Assembly: GCF_001429765.1 (NCBI RefSeq)
Contig: NZ_LMJB01000006.1
Location: 186,001-250,000, forward strand
DNA length: 64,000 nt
Direction of reading: 5' to 3'
Origin: Flavobacterium sp. Root901
Lineage (GTDB): Bacteria > Bacteroidota > Bacteroidia > Flavobacteriales > Flavobacteriaceae
Shown: positions 5,648 through 57,805 of the stretch, in pieces
Layout of the letters: each line of letters starts with the position of its first letter
Position numbering within the stretch: the first letter of the stretch is position 1
The notes under the pieces: model-generated
What the model was told of the DNA's origin: nothing
What the model saw: only the letters and a program-made list of their open reading frames with translations
Databases searched by the model: none
Made by a program: the position numbers and the translations under genes

Positions 5648-6937
5648 TCAGCCCAAAAAAGCCTTCAACTCCTCATAACTCCCAATCTTCACACTAACTT
5701 TCTCCTCATTAATAACACTCTCAATCTGTGCCGGAATCGGAAGCGTAATTCCCAGCGCTGGTTCAACAACATCTAAGAATTTAATTGGGTGAGCGGTTTC
5801 TAAGAAAATACCAATGGCGTTAGGATATTTTTCAAGTTCTTTTTTGAGACCTAAATACCCAACCGCGCCGTGAGGTTCTGCGATGTAACCGTCGGTGTTA
5901 TAAATTTTCTTTAGAGCTTCCAGCGTTTCTTCATCGGTATAGCTATAAGAAGAGAAATCTTTTTCAAAAGCCTTTAAATCATTATTGTATAATTCCTGAA
6001 TCCTGATAAAGTTACTTGGGTTTCCAACATCCATTGCGTTAGAAATCGTTGCTTTAGAAGGTTTCGGGTCGTATTTTCCGTTTGCTAAGAATCTTGGCAC
6101 TGTGTCGTTTACGTTTGTAGAAGCCACGAAATGTTCAATTGGTAAACCTAATCTCTTTGCCATAATTCCGGCGCAGATATTCCCGAAGTTTCCGCTTGGG
6201 CAAGAGAAAACCAATGGTTTGTTTTGGTTTTTCAATGCTTTGTAAGCAAAGAAGAAATAAAACATTTGTGGTAACCAACGCGCAATATTAATAGAATTCG
6301 CCGAAGTCAGGTTCTTATGCGCTAAAGTTTCATCCAAAAATGCTTTTTTCACCATATCCTGACAATCATCAAAAACACCGTCAACTTCAAGAGCTTTAAT
6401 ATTCTGCCCTAAAGTCGTCAATTGTTTTTCCTGAATATCACTCACTTTTCCAGACGGATATAAAATCACAACATCAACACCGTCAACACCTAAAAATCCG
6501 CTTGCAACTGCTCCGCCTGTATCGCCGGAAGTTGCAACTAAAACGGTATTTTTAGCGTCTTTTTTATCTTTATTGAAATAACCCAGACAACGTGACATAA
6601 ATCGCGCTCCAACGTCTTTAAACGCCATTGTAGGGCCGTGAAATAATTCTAGCGAATAAATTCCGTCTTCGACTCTCACCACCGGAAAATCAAAAACCAA
6701 AGTATCAGCAATGATTTCTTTCAATTTTGCTTCCGGAATTTCATCGCCCACAAATTGTTTAATTGCTTCATACGCCATTTCTTCGTGGCTTAAACTTTCG
6801 ATTTTATCAAAAAATGAAGGATCAAGAGGTGTAATATTTTCCGGGAAATATAATCCTTTGTCACTCGCTAATCCTTGTATTACAGCTTCCTGAAAAGAAA
6901 CTTTTGGGGCATTATGGTTTAAACTGTAGTAATTCAT
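5648..6937 (-). CDS. thrC: threonine synthase
   Basis: Pyridoxal-phosphate enzyme that converts O-phosphohomoserine to L-threonine, the last step of threonine synthesis (429 aa). The PLP-binding lysine is K107 in HGPTMAFKDVGARF; the phosphate-binding loop (SGDTGGAVASGF, about 136-147) and the N-terminal family start (MNYYSLNHNAP) are present. It is the last gene of the minus-strand thr operon, separated from the 155-aa unknown gene by 435 bp of repeats rather than by the usual short gap. Its last 38 codons are duplicated at 4736-4855 beyond the AlkB-like gene. A run of 7-bp repeats lies directly upstream of its ATG. Confidence 0.96.
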   Translation of the reverse strand: MNYYSLNHNAPKVSFQEAVIQGLASDKGLYFPENITPLDPSFFDKIESLSHEEMAYEAIKQFVGDEIPEAKLKEIIADTLVFDFPVVRVEDGIYSLELFHGPTMAFKDVGARFMSRCLGYFNKDKKDAKNTVLVATSGDTGGAVASGFLGVDGVDVVILYPSGKVSDIQEKQLTTLGQNIKALEVDGVFDDCQDMVKKAFLDETLAHKNLTSANSINIARWLPQMFYFFFAYKALKNQNKPLVFSCPSGNFGNICAGIMAKRLGLPIEHFVASTNVNDTVPRFLANGKYDPKPSKATISNAMDVGNPSNFIRIQELYNNDLKAFEKDFSSYSYTDEETLEALKKIYNTDGYIAEPHGAVGYLGLKKELEKYPNAIGIFLETAHPIKFLDVVEPALGITLPIPAQIESVINEEKVSVKIGSYEELKAFLG

Positions 6938-7372: not shown

Positions 7373-7840
7373 TCATTTCCAAAATTCCCACCAACTTTTT
7401 TGTTTACCTACGTTAGCTTCTGATTCATCATCCATCAAGTTAATAGTAACACTTCCAATTTCATCGACTTCCCAAATGGTTGCAGTTGCTATCTCTATTG
7501 AATTTAAATTTAAGAATGTTTCTATTTTTTGATTTAAATATTCATCCGTAAGATTTTCATCTTTTTTGGCTCTGCTTAATGAAATAATTGATTTGTCATC
7601 ATTTTCAATTCGTTTCATTCTTTCTGCTAACACTACTAAAATATCTTTAGAATAGGTTGAAACAGCATTTTTAGGAATATTATAATCATCATCAAAATGA
7701 AAATAATCAGAAACAAGAATCGAGAAAAATTGATTGTCCCTTTTATCGAAATAAAATATTTCAGAAATTCTTTCTTCTGGCTGGCTGAAACCAATTTTTA
7801 ACCAATTTTCAATTTGCTCTTCTTTTGTTATTTCATCCAT
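7373..7840 (-). CDS. hypothetical protein between thrB and thrC, 155 aa
   Basis: Unknown acidic protein lying 11 bp downstream of thrB on the same strand, hence presumably transcribed with the thr operon although it is not a threonine enzyme. It has no signal peptide or membrane helix. The N-terminal part (KEEQIENWLKIGFSQPEER, then IFYFDKRDNQFFSILVSDYF) faintly resembles UPF0158-type proteins; the C-terminus ends in a tryptophan-rich SWWEFWK tail. Neither is enough for an assignment. The ATG at 7840 is used; an in-frame ATG two codons downstream (7836-7834) is also possible. Confidence 0.65.
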   Translation of the reverse strand: MDEITKEEQIENWLKIGFSQPEERISEIFYFDKRDNQFFSILVSDYFHFDDDYNIPKNAVSTYSKDILVVLAERMKRIENDDKSIISLSRAKKDENLTDEYLNQKIETFLNLNSIEIATATIWEVDEIGSVTINLMDDESEANVGKQKSWWEFWK

Positions 7841-7851
7841 AATTCAAGAAA

Positions 7852-8772
7852 TTACAAAATTCTTACCCCATCCGGATTAATCTTCGAAACGTGAATTTCA
7901 TATGGTAAATTCATTTTTTCGTATACATCGCTCATGGCTTTGGCGATTTGGTCGGCTGTTTCTTTTCCTTTGCTTAAAGCAAAAATCGACGGACCAGAAC
8001 CTGAAATTCCAGAACCTAAAGCACCATTTTCTAAAGCCGTTTGCTTGATTTGGTCAAATCCCGGAATTAAAACACTTCTTAAAGGTTCTACGATTTCATC
8101 GTGAAGCGAACGGCCAATCAAATCGTAATCTTTGGTGTAAAGACCAGCAATCAATCCGCCTACATTTCCCCATTGCATAATGGCGCTTTTTAGGGAAACC
8201 GTTTGTTTTAAAACCGAACGCGCGTCAGAAGTTTTTAACTCAATTTGAGGATGAACCACCGTAGCAAACAATTCTTCCGGACTATCGATTCTGATAATGT
8301 CCAGTGGAGCATAACTTCTTACCAACGTAAAACCGCCTAAAAGGGCAGGAGCAACGTTGTCTGCGTGAGCGTTTCCGCTGGCTAATTTTTCGCCCTGCAT
8401 GGCAAACTGTACCAAATCTTTTCGCGAATACGGTCTTCCTAATAATTCATTAATTCCGAAAACCGCTCCGGCAGAACTTGCCGCACTGCTTCCGATACCG
8501 CTTCCGGCTTTGATGTTTTTATAAATTTCGATTTCAAATCCAAAATCCAACTCGTCTAAAGTTGCCAACATCGCCAAAGCTGCAACACCCGAAACATTTT
8601 TCTCCGTTTCAAGCGGTAAATCGGCACCCACGATTTTAGTAATCCGTACTCCTTTTTGATCTGATTTCCGAACGATCATTTCGTCACCCGCATTGTCTAA
8701 GCAAAGTCCAAGTACGTCAAATCCGCACGAAAGATTTGCGATTGTAGCGGGACAGAATAATTTTATTTCCAT
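7852..8772 (-). CDS. thrB: homoserine kinase
   Basis: GHMP-family kinase that phosphorylates L-homoserine with ATP to give O-phosphohomoserine, the substrate of ThrC (306 aa). The ATP-binding glycine/serine loop (KAGSGIGSSAASSAG, about residues 88-102), the N-terminal PATIANLSCGFD motif and the C-terminal third GHMP motif (GALGSGISGSGPSIFAL) are all present, and the length is normal for the family. It is the second enzyme gene of the minus-strand thr operon, 148 bp after thrA. That gap is filled by a hairpin-forming word repeat, and the unknown 155-aa gene follows 11 bp downstream. Confidence 0.96.
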   Translation of the reverse strand: MEIKLFCPATIANLSCGFDVLGLCLDNAGDEMIVRKSDQKGVRITKIVGADLPLETEKNVSGVAALAMLATLDELDFGFEIEIYKNIKAGSGIGSSAASSAGAVFGINELLGRPYSRKDLVQFAMQGEKLASGNAHADNVAPALLGGFTLVRSYAPLDIIRIDSPEELFATVVHPQIELKTSDARSVLKQTVSLKSAIMQWGNVGGLIAGLYTKDYDLIGRSLHDEIVEPLRSVLIPGFDQIKQTALENGALGSGISGSGPSIFALSKGKETADQIAKAMSDVYEKMNLPYEIHVSKINPDGVRIL

Positions 8773-8775
8773 TTT

Positions 8776-8921
8776 TAAGGTTCTGAGGTTCTAAGATGCT
8801 AAGATTCTAAGGTTTCTTTGCAACTTATTGTTTTTAAGTTTCTAAGGTTTTGAGATTCTAAGATGCTAAGGTTGTTTTGAAAAAAACTCAGACCCTTAGC
8901 ATCTTAGAACCTTAGCACCTT
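8776..8921. repeat. ctaagg/ttc word repeat with 15-bp inverted arms between thrA and thrB
   Basis: Tandem variants of a roughly 9-bp word (TTCTAAGAT / GCTAAGGTT) occupy 8776-8815 and 8836-8873. Their reverse complement occupies 8888-8921. The arms 8857-8871 and 8894-8908 are perfect 15-bp complements with a 22-nt loop. It lies inside the thr operon in the thrA-thrB gap and could affect message processing or downstream expression. Confidence 0.75.
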
Positions 8922-11368
8922 TATATATTACCTATTCGAATTACATCTGCAAAAATTCCTGAAGCTGTAACTGCTGCACCGGCTCCGGCACCTTTTATTA
9001 ATAAAGGCTGATCTACGTAACGATCGGTGTAGAAAAGCACGATATTGTCTTTTCCTTCCAAATTGTAAAACGGATGATCTTTTGGAATAAACTGAAGACC
9101 AACGCTAGCTTTTCCGTTCTCGAATTGTGCTACGTATTTTAATCTTGAATCTTTGGCTAAAGCTTCTTTATAAATGTTTTCAAAATGCGATGCATGTTTG
9201 ATTAAAGAGGCAAAGAAATCTTCGTTGTTTGTTGTTTCCAGACATTCTGCCGGTAAAAACGATTCATTTGCAATGGCATCAATATCCATTTCGTAACCGC
9301 TTTCGCGAATTAAAATCAGGATTTTACGGGCCACGTCGATTCCGCTAAGGTCAATTTTTGGATCCGGTTCAGTAAAACCCTGAACTCCGGCTTCTTTTAC
9401 CACATCGTGGAAAGAATTGTTTTCATCAAAATTGTTGAAAATAAAGTTTAAACTTCCAGATAAAACTGCCTGAATTTTATGCACTTTATCACCGGATGCG
9501 ATTAAGTTTTTTACGGTATCAATAATTGGTAATCCTGCACCAACATTTGTTTCAAACAAAAACGGCGCATTATATTGGCGTGATAAGCTTTTTAATTTTT
9601 TATAATTGTCGTAAGCAGAAGAACAGGCAATTTTGTTGCAGGTTACAACGGCAATACTTTCTTTTAGGAATTTCTCGTACATATCAGAAACGCTTGCATT
9701 TGCTGTGATATCTACAAAAATGCTGTTGCGTAAATTCAGTTCTTTGGCCCGGGCGATAAATTCTGTTGCAATTGCAGCTTCTCCTTTATCTAAAGTCGAC
9801 TGCCAGTCTTTTAAGGAAATTCCATCTTCATCAAAAAGCATTTTTCTTGAATTGGACAAAGCAATTACGCGAACATTAATTTTTAAAACCTCTTTTAAGA
9901 ATTTCTTTTGGTTGTGAATCTGCTCGATGAATTTTTCGCCTACATTTCCAACTCCCATCACAAATAAATTGAGCTGTTTAGTATTTTCTTCAAAGAAATT
10001 CTCGTGCAGCGTATTCAGTGCTTTTTTAACGTCTCTTTCGTTTATTACAGTCGAAATATTACGTTCAGAAGCACCTTGCGCAATGGCACGGATATTCACG
10101 TTGTTTTTTCCTAAAGTGCTGAACATTCTTCCGCTCAAACCCTGATGGTTTTTCATGTTTTCGCCCACCAAAGCAATAATGCAAAGGTCTTTTTCTACAT
10201 AACAAGGATCGATTTTGTTTTGTGCAATTTCGATTTCAAAAGCCCTGTTAATCGCAGCTTCGGCGTTATCAGCATCAGAATTTAAAATTCCGATACAAAT
10301 AGAATGTTCCGAAGAAGCCTGAGTAATAAAAATTACATTGATTTTTTCCTGAGACAATACTTCAAACAAACGTCGGGAAGAACCCGCAACACCAATCATT
10401 CCCGGACCTTCAAGAGTAACAAGCGAAATATTATTAATATGGCTGATTCCTTTTACGACTGTATCTTTTGTTACAACATGATCAGAAATTAAAGTGCCTT
10501 CAGCTTCCGGTTCAAAAGTATTTTTAATTAAAATCGGAATATTTTTTCTTAAAACCGGCTGAATCGTAGGCGGATACAAAACTTTAGCACCAAAATGAGA
10601 CAATTCCATTGCCTCCTGGTACGAAATATTCGCAATTGGCTGTGCTTGTTTTACGATTTTCGGGTTTGCCGTAAACATTCCGTTTACATCAGTCCAGATT
10701 TCAAGTTGTTCGGCATCAATTGCTCCGGCGATAATTGCCGCTGTATAATCAGATCCGCCGCGGCCGAGAGTTGTCGTGATTCCGTCAAGAGTCTGTGCAA
10801 TAAATCCGGGTAAAATATTAATCCTAGATTCATTCTGCCCAAAATATTCCTGAATTAAATTATTAGAAATTTCAAAGTTTACCGCCGCTTTTCCGTAGTT
10901 ATGATCTGTTTTAATTAATTCACGACTGTCTTTGTAAAGAGCTTCTTTATCAGTTTGCTGAAAAGCCTGCGCAATAATATAAGACGAAAGCAATTCTCCA
11001 AAACTTAAAATAGTATCAGCAGTTCTTGGAGATAATTCGCCTAAAAGGAAACAGCCGTCTAATAAAGTTTCTAAATGATTGATGATTCTTTTTACATGGC
11101 TTAACAAACTGCTTTGCTCGCTTACCGGAATAAGTTCTTTAAGAGTGTCAAGGTGTTTTTTCTCTATTTCAGCAACAATTTCCCTAAAACCTTCGTCGTT
11201 TGCCGCTGCTTTTGCTGCTGCAGACTGCAGTAAATCTGTTACTTTGCTAAGTGCAGAAACTACAACAACCAGTTTGTCGCTTTTGGCTTTTTGATTAACA
11301 ATTTCGAGAACGAGTTTTATATTTTGAGCATTGGCAACCGAAGTTCCGCCAAATTTTAATACTTTCAT
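8921..11368 (-). CDS. thrA: bifunctional aspartate kinase / homoserine dehydrogenase
   Basis: Fusion enzyme of 815 aa that catalyses the first and third steps from aspartate to homoserine. The aspartokinase domain starts at once with MKVLKFGGTSVANAQNI (KFGGTS is the family motif) and continues to about residue 290 (LGRGGSDYTAAI, SHFGAKVLYPPT). Two ACT-type regulatory segments follow (about 310-450, including NISLVTLEGPGMIGVAG and LCIIALVGENM). The homoserine dehydrogenase half starts at LNLFVMGVGNVGEKF and carries the conserved GSLNFIFN and EAGVQGFTEPDP motifs. Feedback inhibition by threonine is usual for this architecture. It is the first enzyme gene of the thr operon, preceded by a Thr/Ile-rich leader ORF 186 bp upstream. 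Confidence 0.97.
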   Translation of the reverse strand: MKVLKFGGTSVANAQNIKLVLEIVNQKAKSDKLVVVVSALSKVTDLLQSAAAKAAANDEGFREIVAEIEKKHLDTLKELIPVSEQSSLLSHVKRIINHLETLLDGCFLLGELSPRTADTILSFGELLSSYIIAQAFQQTDKEALYKDSRELIKTDHNYGKAAVNFEISNNLIQEYFGQNESRINILPGFIAQTLDGITTTLGRGGSDYTAAIIAGAIDAEQLEIWTDVNGMFTANPKIVKQAQPIANISYQEAMELSHFGAKVLYPPTIQPVLRKNIPILIKNTFEPEAEGTLISDHVVTKDTVVKGISHINNISLVTLEGPGMIGVAGSSRRLFEVLSQEKINVIFITQASSEHSICIGILNSDADNAEAAINRAFEIEIAQNKIDPCYVEKDLCIIALVGENMKNHQGLSGRMFSTLGKNNVNIRAIAQGASERNISTVINERDVKKALNTLHENFFEENTKQLNLFVMGVGNVGEKFIEQIHNQKKFLKEVLKINVRVIALSNSRKMLFDEDGISLKDWQSTLDKGEAAIATEFIARAKELNLRNSIFVDITANASVSDMYEKFLKESIAVVTCNKIACSSAYDNYKKLKSLSRQYNAPFLFETNVGAGLPIIDTVKNLIASGDKVHKIQAVLSGSLNFIFNNFDENNSFHDVVKEAGVQGFTEPDPKIDLSGIDVARKILILIRESGYEMDIDAIANESFLPAECLETTNNEDFFASLIKHASHFENIYKEALAKDSRLKYVAQFENGKASVGLQFIPKDHPFYNLEGKDNIVLFYTDRYVDQPLLIKGAGAGAAVTASGIFADVIRIGNI

Positions 11369-11554
11369 TTTTGATATTTTTTAATAAGGTGCAAAGATTT
11401 TGAGTAACAAAGTTCAAAGGTTATCAACTATGAACTGAAACTGAAAAACTGTGTCTTCTTTTTCTTTTTGTAAATGTTTTTCATGTATCCAATACCTTTC
11501 TTCTTTTAAGAAAAAAGTATAGATAATCTGGATTATATGTAAAAATGTATACCC
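11369..11554 (-). promoter_or_regulatory. candidate attenuator region between leader ORF and thrA
   Basis: The 186-nt gap holds competing AU-rich stems on the minus strand. A GUAUA ... UAUAC pairing enclosing AUAAUC/GAUUAU ends directly before UUUUUU (terminator-like, about 11510-11553). An alternative hairpin uses the same UAUAC bases as its left arm (AUACUUUU ... AAAGGUAU, about 11492-11520). The stems are weak and found by eye; alternative pairing next to a Thr-codon ORF is nonetheless what attenuation requires. Confidence 0.4.
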
Positions 11555-11563
11555 CTAAGGGGT
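11551..11563. repeat. 13-bp palindrome over the leader stop codon
   Basis: ACCCCTAAGGGGT is a perfect palindrome around a 3-base centre, covering the last Thr and Pro codons and the TAG of the leader ORF. It would form a short strong hairpin exactly where a ribosome finishes or stalls. Confidence 0.7.
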
Positions 11564-11659
11564 AGTTGTAGTTGTAGTAGAAATTGTGGTAACAGCAATT
11601 GCAGCTTCTGTTTGAGCTGTAATAATTGCAGATTGATATTTTATGCTGTTACTTTTCAT
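11555..11659 (-). CDS. thrL: thr operon leader peptide (34 aa, Thr/Ile-rich)
   Basis: Short ORF translated by hand from the ATG at 11659 to the TAG at 11555. It gives MKSNSIKYQSAIITAQ followed by TEAAIAVTTISTTTTTTP. Ten of its 34 residues are Thr and five are Ile, with six consecutive Thr codons just before the end. This is the signature of a transcription-attenuation leader such as E. coli thrL, where scarce charged tRNA-Thr or tRNA-Ile stalls the ribosome. A consensus -7 box lies 11 nt upstream of the ATG, a palindrome covers its stop, and thrA begins 186 nt further on. The leader character is read directly from the sequence; the mechanism is inference by analogy. Confidence 0.85.
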   Translation of the reverse strand: MKSNSIKYQSAIITAQTEAAIAVTTISTTTTTTP

Positions 11660-11670
11660 TTTTGATTTTT

Positions 11671-11678
11671 CAAAATTA
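11671..11678 (-). promoter_or_regulatory. -7 box of the thr operon
   Basis: TAATTTTG on the minus strand fits TAnnTTTG and would place transcription start around 11666-11668, just before the leader-peptide ATG. No clear -33 TTG is seen. In 11679-12032, up to hutH, I found no gene; a weak TTG-16 nt-TAAATTTA pair at 11998-12024 may serve hutH. Confidence 0.6.
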
Positions 11679-12032
11679 CAGCTTTTTATAAAAGTTAAAA
11701 ACCTAAAAAGCCTTTTTGCGAATATTTTAATAATTCAAATCCTTAGATTTCAATATTGAGCATTTGTTAAAATTAGATATGTTAAGTTGCCGTTTTGACA
11801 GATTTCAAGGTGCGATTTTAAGAAATAAACCAAAGCTGAGCATCTTTTTTGATATGAAATTATGTGATTTTAAGTTAAAAACCTCCTGAATTACAGCTTT
11901 GTTTTGTATGATTATTATTGTGAAATAATTAAAATGGTTAAATCTGTTCTGTTCAAATTTTAATTATTGTGATAAAATGTTGCTTTTTAATATTGATTTG
12001 TTGAATTTTGACATCTTAAATTTAAAAATGTC

Positions 12033-57645: not shown

Positions 57646-57712
57646 TGACTTTTTGTTTATTTGTTTAATCGTTAATTTATTAATCGGAATGTTGTATTGA
57701 AAATGAGTCTTT

Positions 57713-57805
57713 TAGCCCTGATGGAAGCGACATCCTTTTGTGTCTCGTTTTTTTTAACGAGACACAAAAGATATAGCGTACAGCAGGAAACAGCTCCTGA
57801 TTATT
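57713..57805. repeat. REP-like element with 15-bp perfect hairpin
   Basis: Core arms CTTTTGTGTCTCGTT (57735-57749) and AACGAGACACAAAAG (57756-57770) with a six-T loop, flanked by GCCCTGATGGAAGCGACATC and GATATAGCGTACAGCAGGAA. The flanking words resemble a Bacteroidota intergenic repeat family I remember; this is not verified. It lies between divergent genes, so it is not a terminator of either. Confidence 0.75.

Follow-up and report, generated by a model that had tools for sequence, protein, structure and literature searches.

The window analysed in this study is a stretch of 64,000 nucleotides from Flavobacterium sp. Root901, and its minus strand carries three genes of threonine synthesis that were assigned by family matches, namely thrA (8921..11368), encoding a bifunctional aspartate kinase/homoserine dehydrogenase I (PRK09436), thrB (7852..8772), encoding homoserine kinase, and thrC (5648..6937), encoding threonine synthase. 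The best relatives of thrA come from Flavobacterium records and are 96% identical. Between thrB and thrC lies an ORF of 155 aa (7373-7840, minus) with no match in Pfam or NCBIfam. A second gene resembling a bifunctional aspartate kinase/homoserine dehydrogenase was noted at G000:C5:185694-188096 (L082) and is 37% identical to thrA, and a Flavo-1 RNA (RF01705; 78.3 bits) lies on the plus strand of the window at 57710-57794. Upstream of thrA, the minus strand contains a leader ORF of 34 aa rich in Thr and Ile codons (11555..11659), which was recognised by its sequence and by its conservation in relatives.

Direct reading of 11659-11555 gave the peptide MKSNSIKYQSAIITAQTEAAIAVTTISTTTTTTP*, whose 34 residues include 10 Thr and 5 Ile as stated in the preliminary description, and the ORF is indeed located between the -7 box (11671-11678) and thrA, with 186 nt from its last base to the thrA ATG at 11368. 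The six Thr codons had been placed directly before the stop codon; they do form an unbroken run (11561..11578, minus), but one Pro codon intervenes before the TAG, and the last Thr codon (ACC) already belongs to the 5' arm of a hairpin that we call P1. The claim that the Thr bias exceeds chance agrees with a test in which the 660 nt before thrA were shuffled with their dinucleotides preserved: at least six consecutive Thr in an ATG ORF occurred in 0 of 3000 shuffles and an ORF of at least 15 aa with at least 10 Thr in 4 of 3000. As evidence that the leader ORF is real, its conservation is stronger than the shuffle test. The leader ATG has an adenine at -3, a base that favours initiation in F. 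johnsoniae according to a part of PMC6847099. A further ORF of 18 codons after the leader (11484-11428, read by hand) was rejected, as it is not conserved and lacks an ATG start in 11 of 16 aligned rows.

A Thr-rich ORF before thrA in related species was the check that the preliminary description had proposed, and such an ORF, ending at or running through P1, was found in every one of the best 80 of 238 relatives, of which 77 are titled Flavobacterium and 3 "Flavobacteriaceae bacterium". Apart from L025, and from L031 and L053, whose start was set at an in-frame ATG further upstream, these leaders are 32, 33 or 34 aa long. In L025 (F. johnsoniae CI04) the leader TAG is changed to TCG and the frame extends to 61 aa; the P1 stem is kept with the loop TTC. 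Most of the close-relative leaders end with TTTTTTP, TTTITTP, TTTTTP or TITTTP. A second parsing script read 71 of 81 leaders, the other 10 being missed by its start pattern, and the stop was TAG in 70 of these 71. Among the same 71 leaders, 39% of the single-base codon differences were synonymous versus 25% expected, in pairs that are related and not independent.

Beyond the close relatives, a genus survey of 199 genomes gave 141 with thrA at E≤1e-200, and 36 of 40 more divergent Flavobacterium upstream regions taken from it satisfied the leader rule. The family survey covered 299 genomes, 240 of them with thrA at E≤1e-150, and 60 upstream regions were taken; 57 had a recognisable thrA start (one of them, L084, being again Flavobacterium) and 3 were dropped. 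An ACCCC-loop-GGGGT hairpin or a near variant, usually ending a Thr/Ile-rich frame, was seen by a loose pattern in 55 of these 57 loci, with the place being off in L131, and 45 of the 57 passed a stricter leader rule. Under this stricter rule, 44 of 218 loci in all lacked a leader (1/81, 12/57, 4/40 and 27/40). In 36 Flavobacterium leaders, Thr occupied codons -4 to 0 relative to P1 in 69, 89, 97, 92 and 100% of cases, and in 45 family leaders the corresponding values were 49, 29, 53, 53 and 100%, with Ile at 27-40% at codons -4 to -1; the figure for Thr at codon 0 is partly circular, considering that leaders and frames were chosen by their Thr/Ile content. The leader ends vary (TTTPLG, TPFGV, TPWGC, TTLWGC) because the stop codon starts in the P1 loop in the relatives of the window but after the hairpin in most genera.

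In the phylum survey, 183 of 247 genomes had thrA, and 40 upstream regions from other families were read. By eye, the same arrangement of ORF and hairpin was present in three of these families, in 2 of 2 loci (f2), 4 of 5 (f4) and 4 of 6 (f23), the last of which carries the kinship label "same phylum" and so belongs to another class. In f8 (2/2), f9 (1/2) and f11 (1/1), a short ORF had a hairpin near its end, but with another sequence or spacing, and in all four f3 loci a Thr leader was present with a canonical terminator behind it. In the remaining families among the 40 loci, nothing clear was seen before thrA. Genera differ in the peptide outside its Thr end but share the Thr codons and P1. 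This speaks against the reading that the ORF encodes a functional peptide or is a relic, with thrA being driven mainly by an internal promoter; this reading is in our view very unlikely, and the distribution of promoter boxes bears on its second half.

The leader is preceded by the -7 box TAATTTTG (11671..11678, minus), which fits the TAnnTTTG motif and is kept in relatives, and which would place the transcription start near 11666, 7 nt upstream of the leader ATG. According to a part of PMC9723704, the sigma-A box of F. psychrophilum is TAnnTTTG at positions -12 to -5. The 45 nt preceding the leader ATG contain this motif in 80 of 80 F. johnsoniae-like, 36 of 36 other Flavobacterium and 40 of 45 family leaders, compared with 0/80, 2/36 and 0/45 in a control window of 45 nt. 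Between P1 and thrA, strict TAnnTTTG was present in only 0/80, 1/36 and 10/45 of the same three sets, which speaks against an internal promoter as the main source of thrA transcripts. On the other side, a possible internal box AATCTTTG, followed by CACC, lies at 11392..11399 (minus) with one mismatch from TAnnTTTG; transcripts from it would begin about 19 nt ahead of the thrA ATG, and this candidate could feed thrA past the leader. It also looks as if the internal promoter has been exchanged between lineages with a short and a long spacer: CTTTGCnCC close to thrA was found in 33 of 41 long-spacer loci (the window included) and 0 of 40 short-spacer loci, a TTGCA box before thrA in 35 of 40 short-spacer and 7 of 41 long-spacer loci, and TTTACA or a similar sequence in place of TTGCA in 37 of 41 long-spacer loci. 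At 11369-11460 of the window, long-spacer loci have about 78 additional nt that include a promoter-like TTTG...AATCTTTGCACC, and the upstream TTTGCA box is mostly TTTACA-like there. As a separate observation, the block TTATTAAAATATTCGCAAAAAGG (11711-11733, minus), about 45-67 nt before the inferred leader start, ranks with the best conserved stretches that precede the promoter in an alignment of 81 loci and is perhaps a regulator site or an UP-like element.

Four elements were recognised in and behind the leader ORF. P1 (11550..11564, minus) is the hairpin TACCCC-TTA-GGGGTA, in whose loop the stop TAG begins. P0 (11602..11619, minus) is formed within the leader ORF before the Thr run by CAGCT:AGCTG, and it was identified by alignment-free coevolution and by folds; its stems in relatives are CAACTC:GAGTTG and CAGTTC:GAACTG. 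Alignment of relatives gave a conserved motif ACATATAATCC (11530..11540, minus) containing ATAT, which in relatives is mostly located 8-12 nt behind P1, and P_down (11496..11517, minus) is an A/U-rich hairpin CTTTTTTC-loop-GAAGAAAG without a U-run after it. Measured from the last G of P1, the sequence [CT]ATAT follows at a distance of 5-12 nt in 37 of 44 family leaders (8 nt in 15, 10 nt in 7 and 12 nt in 8) and of 11-13 nt in 34 of 36 other Flavobacterium leaders, and the linker between P1 and ATAT shows little conservation in the family.

In an alignment of 98 sequences that was fitted to the structure, paired cells amounted to 94% for P1 and 81% for P_down, covariation was 0.300 versus 0.109 in shuffles (0/500), and all 8 pairs of P_down had changes on both sides. 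On a Flavobacterium sequence alignment, the covariation of P1 and P_down together was not above shuffles (0.140 versus 0.138), one reason being that P1 is nearly invariant in this alignment. An alignment-free permutation test, which lacks the bias of the structure-fitted alignment and used 300 segment pairs per set, gave z values of 5.9 (family) and 4.9 (Flavobacterium) for P_down and of 6.7 (family) and 4.6 (Flavobacterium) for P0. The P_down region also folded better than shuffles in three sets (mean z -1.30, -1.17 and -1.99; control 0.23, 0.09 and -0.35), and in ten f2/f4/f23 loci it did no better than the control (-0.82 versus -0.77). RNAalifold found P1 in the alignment of 54 Flavobacterium sequences, and P_down only with ribosum scoring; with 71 closer sequences, both hairpins were found. 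P_down as a universal terminator was rejected, considering that it has no U-run and that no fold at all was obtained at its position in 6 of 48 family loci, several more having only a weak one. Likewise, a pairing (A:D) between the 5' arm of P_down and the Ile/Thr codons, which had been noticed by eye in one clade, was dropped after a permutation test over 15 loci (p = 0.22).

In the genomes searched, the element is specific to thrA. P1 is the only site with the pattern ACCCCN2-5GGGGT in the 4.99-Mb genome. Two covariance models were built, R1 from 54 Flavobacterium sequences and R2 from 98 sequences, the latter being used in a whole-genome search with stricter filters. R1 found one site in this genome (E 8.7e-17), and among the family loci it matched 52 of 59 at E≤1 and 30 of 59 at E≤0.01. 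At E≤1 it also matched loci of f2 (2), f4 (4) and f23 (4), and it gave no match at this threshold in L195, L201 and L202 (f9, f8). Over 247 Bacteroidota genomes, R2 matched 28 at E≤0.01, with one match each. When coordinates were compared by hand, all 28 sites lay on the thrA strand and on its upstream side; 25 end 1-113 nt before thrA and three (G671, G624, G555) enter it by a few bases. Eight of the 28 genomes are non-Flavobacterium and lie outside the fetched loci (G578, G125, G119, G032, G628, G644, G671, G675), and some of them belong to genera that also supplied training loci. No R2 match at E≤0.01 was obtained in the remaining 155 genomes that have thrA, several family members included. 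In Rfam release 15 (4227 models), no match above the gathering cut-off was found at the leader, Flavo-1 being the only match in the window, and a permissive search at the leader returned 8 matches up to E = 5, all far below the cut-offs and at chance level. The leader ORF, the promoter box, the Thr codons that touch P1, P1 itself, the ATAT motif, P_down and the restriction to thrA can be read from the sequences themselves.

A rival reading is a classical attenuator of the thrL type, with competition, as known from E. coli, between an antiterminator and an intrinsic terminator located after the leader. This genome does contain attenuators of a canonical kind: the hisG (L145:1183-1242), pheA (L146:1342-1422) and ilvD (L147:1237-1314) leaders, with the peptides MISIQLHHHHLHYCSQAMC, MAANRFYFSNNFYFFFSRSQDCAMVI and MMQISIIITSVVVVNVFSTSASGMV, each have a canonical terminator, and a simple terminator rule recognised 7 of 7 controls, namely these three and the four f3 thr leaders. 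Within this phylum, the f3 thr leaders (L197-L200) provide a classical attenuator of the thr operon; the leader of L197 ends with a GGAGGAAG-like stretch that could, by eye, pair with the terminator's CTTCCTCC. P1 with TACATTTTTA in Flavobacterium passes a simple terminator pattern. However, a canonical terminator after P1 was found in only 2 of 175 thr loci (1/81, 0/36, 0/48 and 1/10), all of which had an automatic P1 call, such a call being lacking in 30 of 218 loci. The tail of P1 is U-rich (at least 5 T in 8 nt) in 77 of 81 and 21 of 30 loci of two Flavobacterium sets but in only 11 of 49 from the family, and intrinsic termination at P1 may therefore have been added locally in Flavobacterium.

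A 1:2/2:3/3:4 scheme in Flavobacterium, with GTATA:TATAC and ATAATC:GATTAT and ending in TATAC-UUUUUU, was rejected as weak (-2.2 kcal/mol). Its covariation was not above shuffles (0.105 versus 0.099; 109/500), and pairs changed on both sides numbered 5 versus 3.0, which is somewhat high (21/500). Neither of the two proposed antiterminator/terminator alternatives, this scheme and the A:D pairing, rose above shuffles or permutation. We consider the thrL-type attenuator quite unlikely here. From the "same logic as E. coli thrL" that the preliminary description had proposed, a Thr-sensing leader ORF with a promoter, present only before thrA in the genomes searched, stands, and a canonical terminator and antiterminator were not found in this lineage.

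Leader-peptide control of thrA-thrB-thrC is well supported, and the leader would very probably switch threonine synthesis on when threonine is short. As the best explanation, for which we judge the chances to be slightly better than even, we propose that a ribosome-sensing leader tunes thrABC to charged tRNA-Thr, in that a stalled ribosome would cover P1 and the polymerase would otherwise pause or terminate. Transcription would begin near 11666, and the leader would be translated at once. When Thr-tRNA is plentiful, ribosomes would pass the Thr codons and leave, and P1 would fold behind RNA polymerase. With the polymerase near the conserved ATAT, about 10 nt past P1, the folded P1 would then cause a pause or termination, which is possibly aided by Rho, or may be weakly intrinsic in Flavobacterium, where P1 has a U-rich tail. 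When Thr-tRNA is short, a ribosome would stall in the Thr run and physically cover P1, and the polymerase would proceed into thrA. Hairpin pauses of RNA polymerase work over a limited range of distances between hairpin and polymerase. The narrow range of distances between P1 and ATAT recalls this geometry, and for this reason we propose that P1 acts on the polymerase. We infer this action, the response to Thr and its polarity, the type of termination and the roles of P0 and P_down from the features described above.

A ribosome covers about 15 nt on each side of its P-site, and this footprint was used to compute the effect of stalling. With the A-site at Thr30 to Thr33, P1 was abolished in the window, and the last Thr codons likewise abolished P1 in five relatives. 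In this computation, direct occlusion of P1 by the stalled ribosome would be the simplest reading. A ribosome at the leader stop codon also covers P1 in the computation, so that P1 can form only once the ribosome has been released or when the leader is not translated. In the window, P1 remains intact with stalls at Thr24, 25, 28 and 29, Thr14 and Thr17 lying further up. On the one hand, the free P1 after these earlier stalls would suit a mechanism of opposite polarity, in which an early stall leaves P1 free as an antiterminator or protective form and a ribosome at the stop removes it, and GGGGTA is common to P1 and a possible downstream hairpin. On the other hand, this competing hairpin is weak and poorly conserved, and the Thr codons crowd directly onto P1, so that the opposite polarity seems improbable to a high degree.

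A Rho-dependent form overlaps with our preferred explanation of occlusion by the stalled ribosome. In this form, a C-rich and G-poor leader and spacer would load Rho, P1 would pause the polymerase, and a stalled ribosome would block both. The genome has a rho gene, the canonical terminator is absent, and the leader has 24.5% C and 8.8% G in the F. johnsoniae-like set, although Thr codons alone make a leader C-rich. The region after P1 has 17.7% C and 8.7% G in the family, with C exceeding G in 42 of 45 loci and in 7 of 8 from f2/f4/f23. In Flavobacterium, however, it has 13.7% C and 11.1% G (C>G in 67/80, with a median difference of 1), and 14.1% C and 9.9% G in a second Flavobacterium set (C>G in 20/30), values that are near the 14.0% C and 12.8% G upstream of 39 other ORFs in the window. 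We consider the Rho-dependent form as such unlikely.

Beyond the single operon, we offer a more general proposal, tentatively and as a possibility rather than an expectation. The element may represent a thr leader RNA of Bacteroidota that occurs only before thrA and in which the control codons abut and overlap a short hairpin mostly lacking a U-run; the stalled ribosome itself would be the antiterminator, with no alternative structure needed, and the hairpin with ATAT 8-12 nt behind it may be an undescribed pause or termination signal of the Bacteroidota RNA polymerase. This study adds a conserved, thrA-specific RNA element of Bacteroidota that is missing from the Rfam release used, and it offers a simple system for asking how a stalled ribosome relieves attenuation without a canonical terminator. 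The canonical his, phe and ilv attenuators of the same genome serve as internal controls.

Leader-peptide attenuation in flavobacteria is already in print in general terms, and the thr element matches no Rfam family. The preliminary description regarded amino acid attenuation as less documented in Bacteroidota, and this understates the record. Bacteroid-trp RNA is associated with trp. It (RF01692) belongs to a different operon from thrABC, and it had no match in the window. It is listed as a cis-regulatory RNA of Bacteroidetes in a part of PMC2864571, and leader-peptide-like short ORFs are mentioned for B. thetaiotaomicron in a part of PMC7366714. For F. psychrophilum, of the same genus as our organism, the part of PMC9723704 considered reports strong clues for leader-peptide attenuation before amino acid operons and names the 5' elements of pheA and hisG; a P1-type hairpin or thrA is not described in this part, and the word threonine is absent from the main text. 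Neither "threonine" nor "thrA" occurs in the main text of PMC4833913, and the thr operon is not mentioned in the part of PMC6429828 considered. Across the literature searched, which consisted of parts of open main texts, we found no description of a thrA leader in Bacteroidota.

In this genome, the his, phe and ilv leaders are likewise rich in the regulated amino acid (HHHHLH; FYFFF; IIIT..VVVV), but they differ from the thr leader in that all three carry a canonical terminator, a hairpin whose tail is rich in T. The E. coli thrL attenuator consists of a leader ORF with Thr/Ile codons before the bifunctional thrA of thrABC, where a terminator competes with an antiterminator. The Rfam family Thr_leader (RF00506) gave no match at the present leader in the Rfam scans. 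The Flavobacterium element shares with thrL the Thr/Ile-codon leader ORF before a bifunctional thrA and the thrABC operon. Unlike thrL, it has no canonical terminator with a U-run, its hairpin lies next to the Thr run and the stop codon or overlaps with them, and it carries the ATAT motif and P_down in addition.
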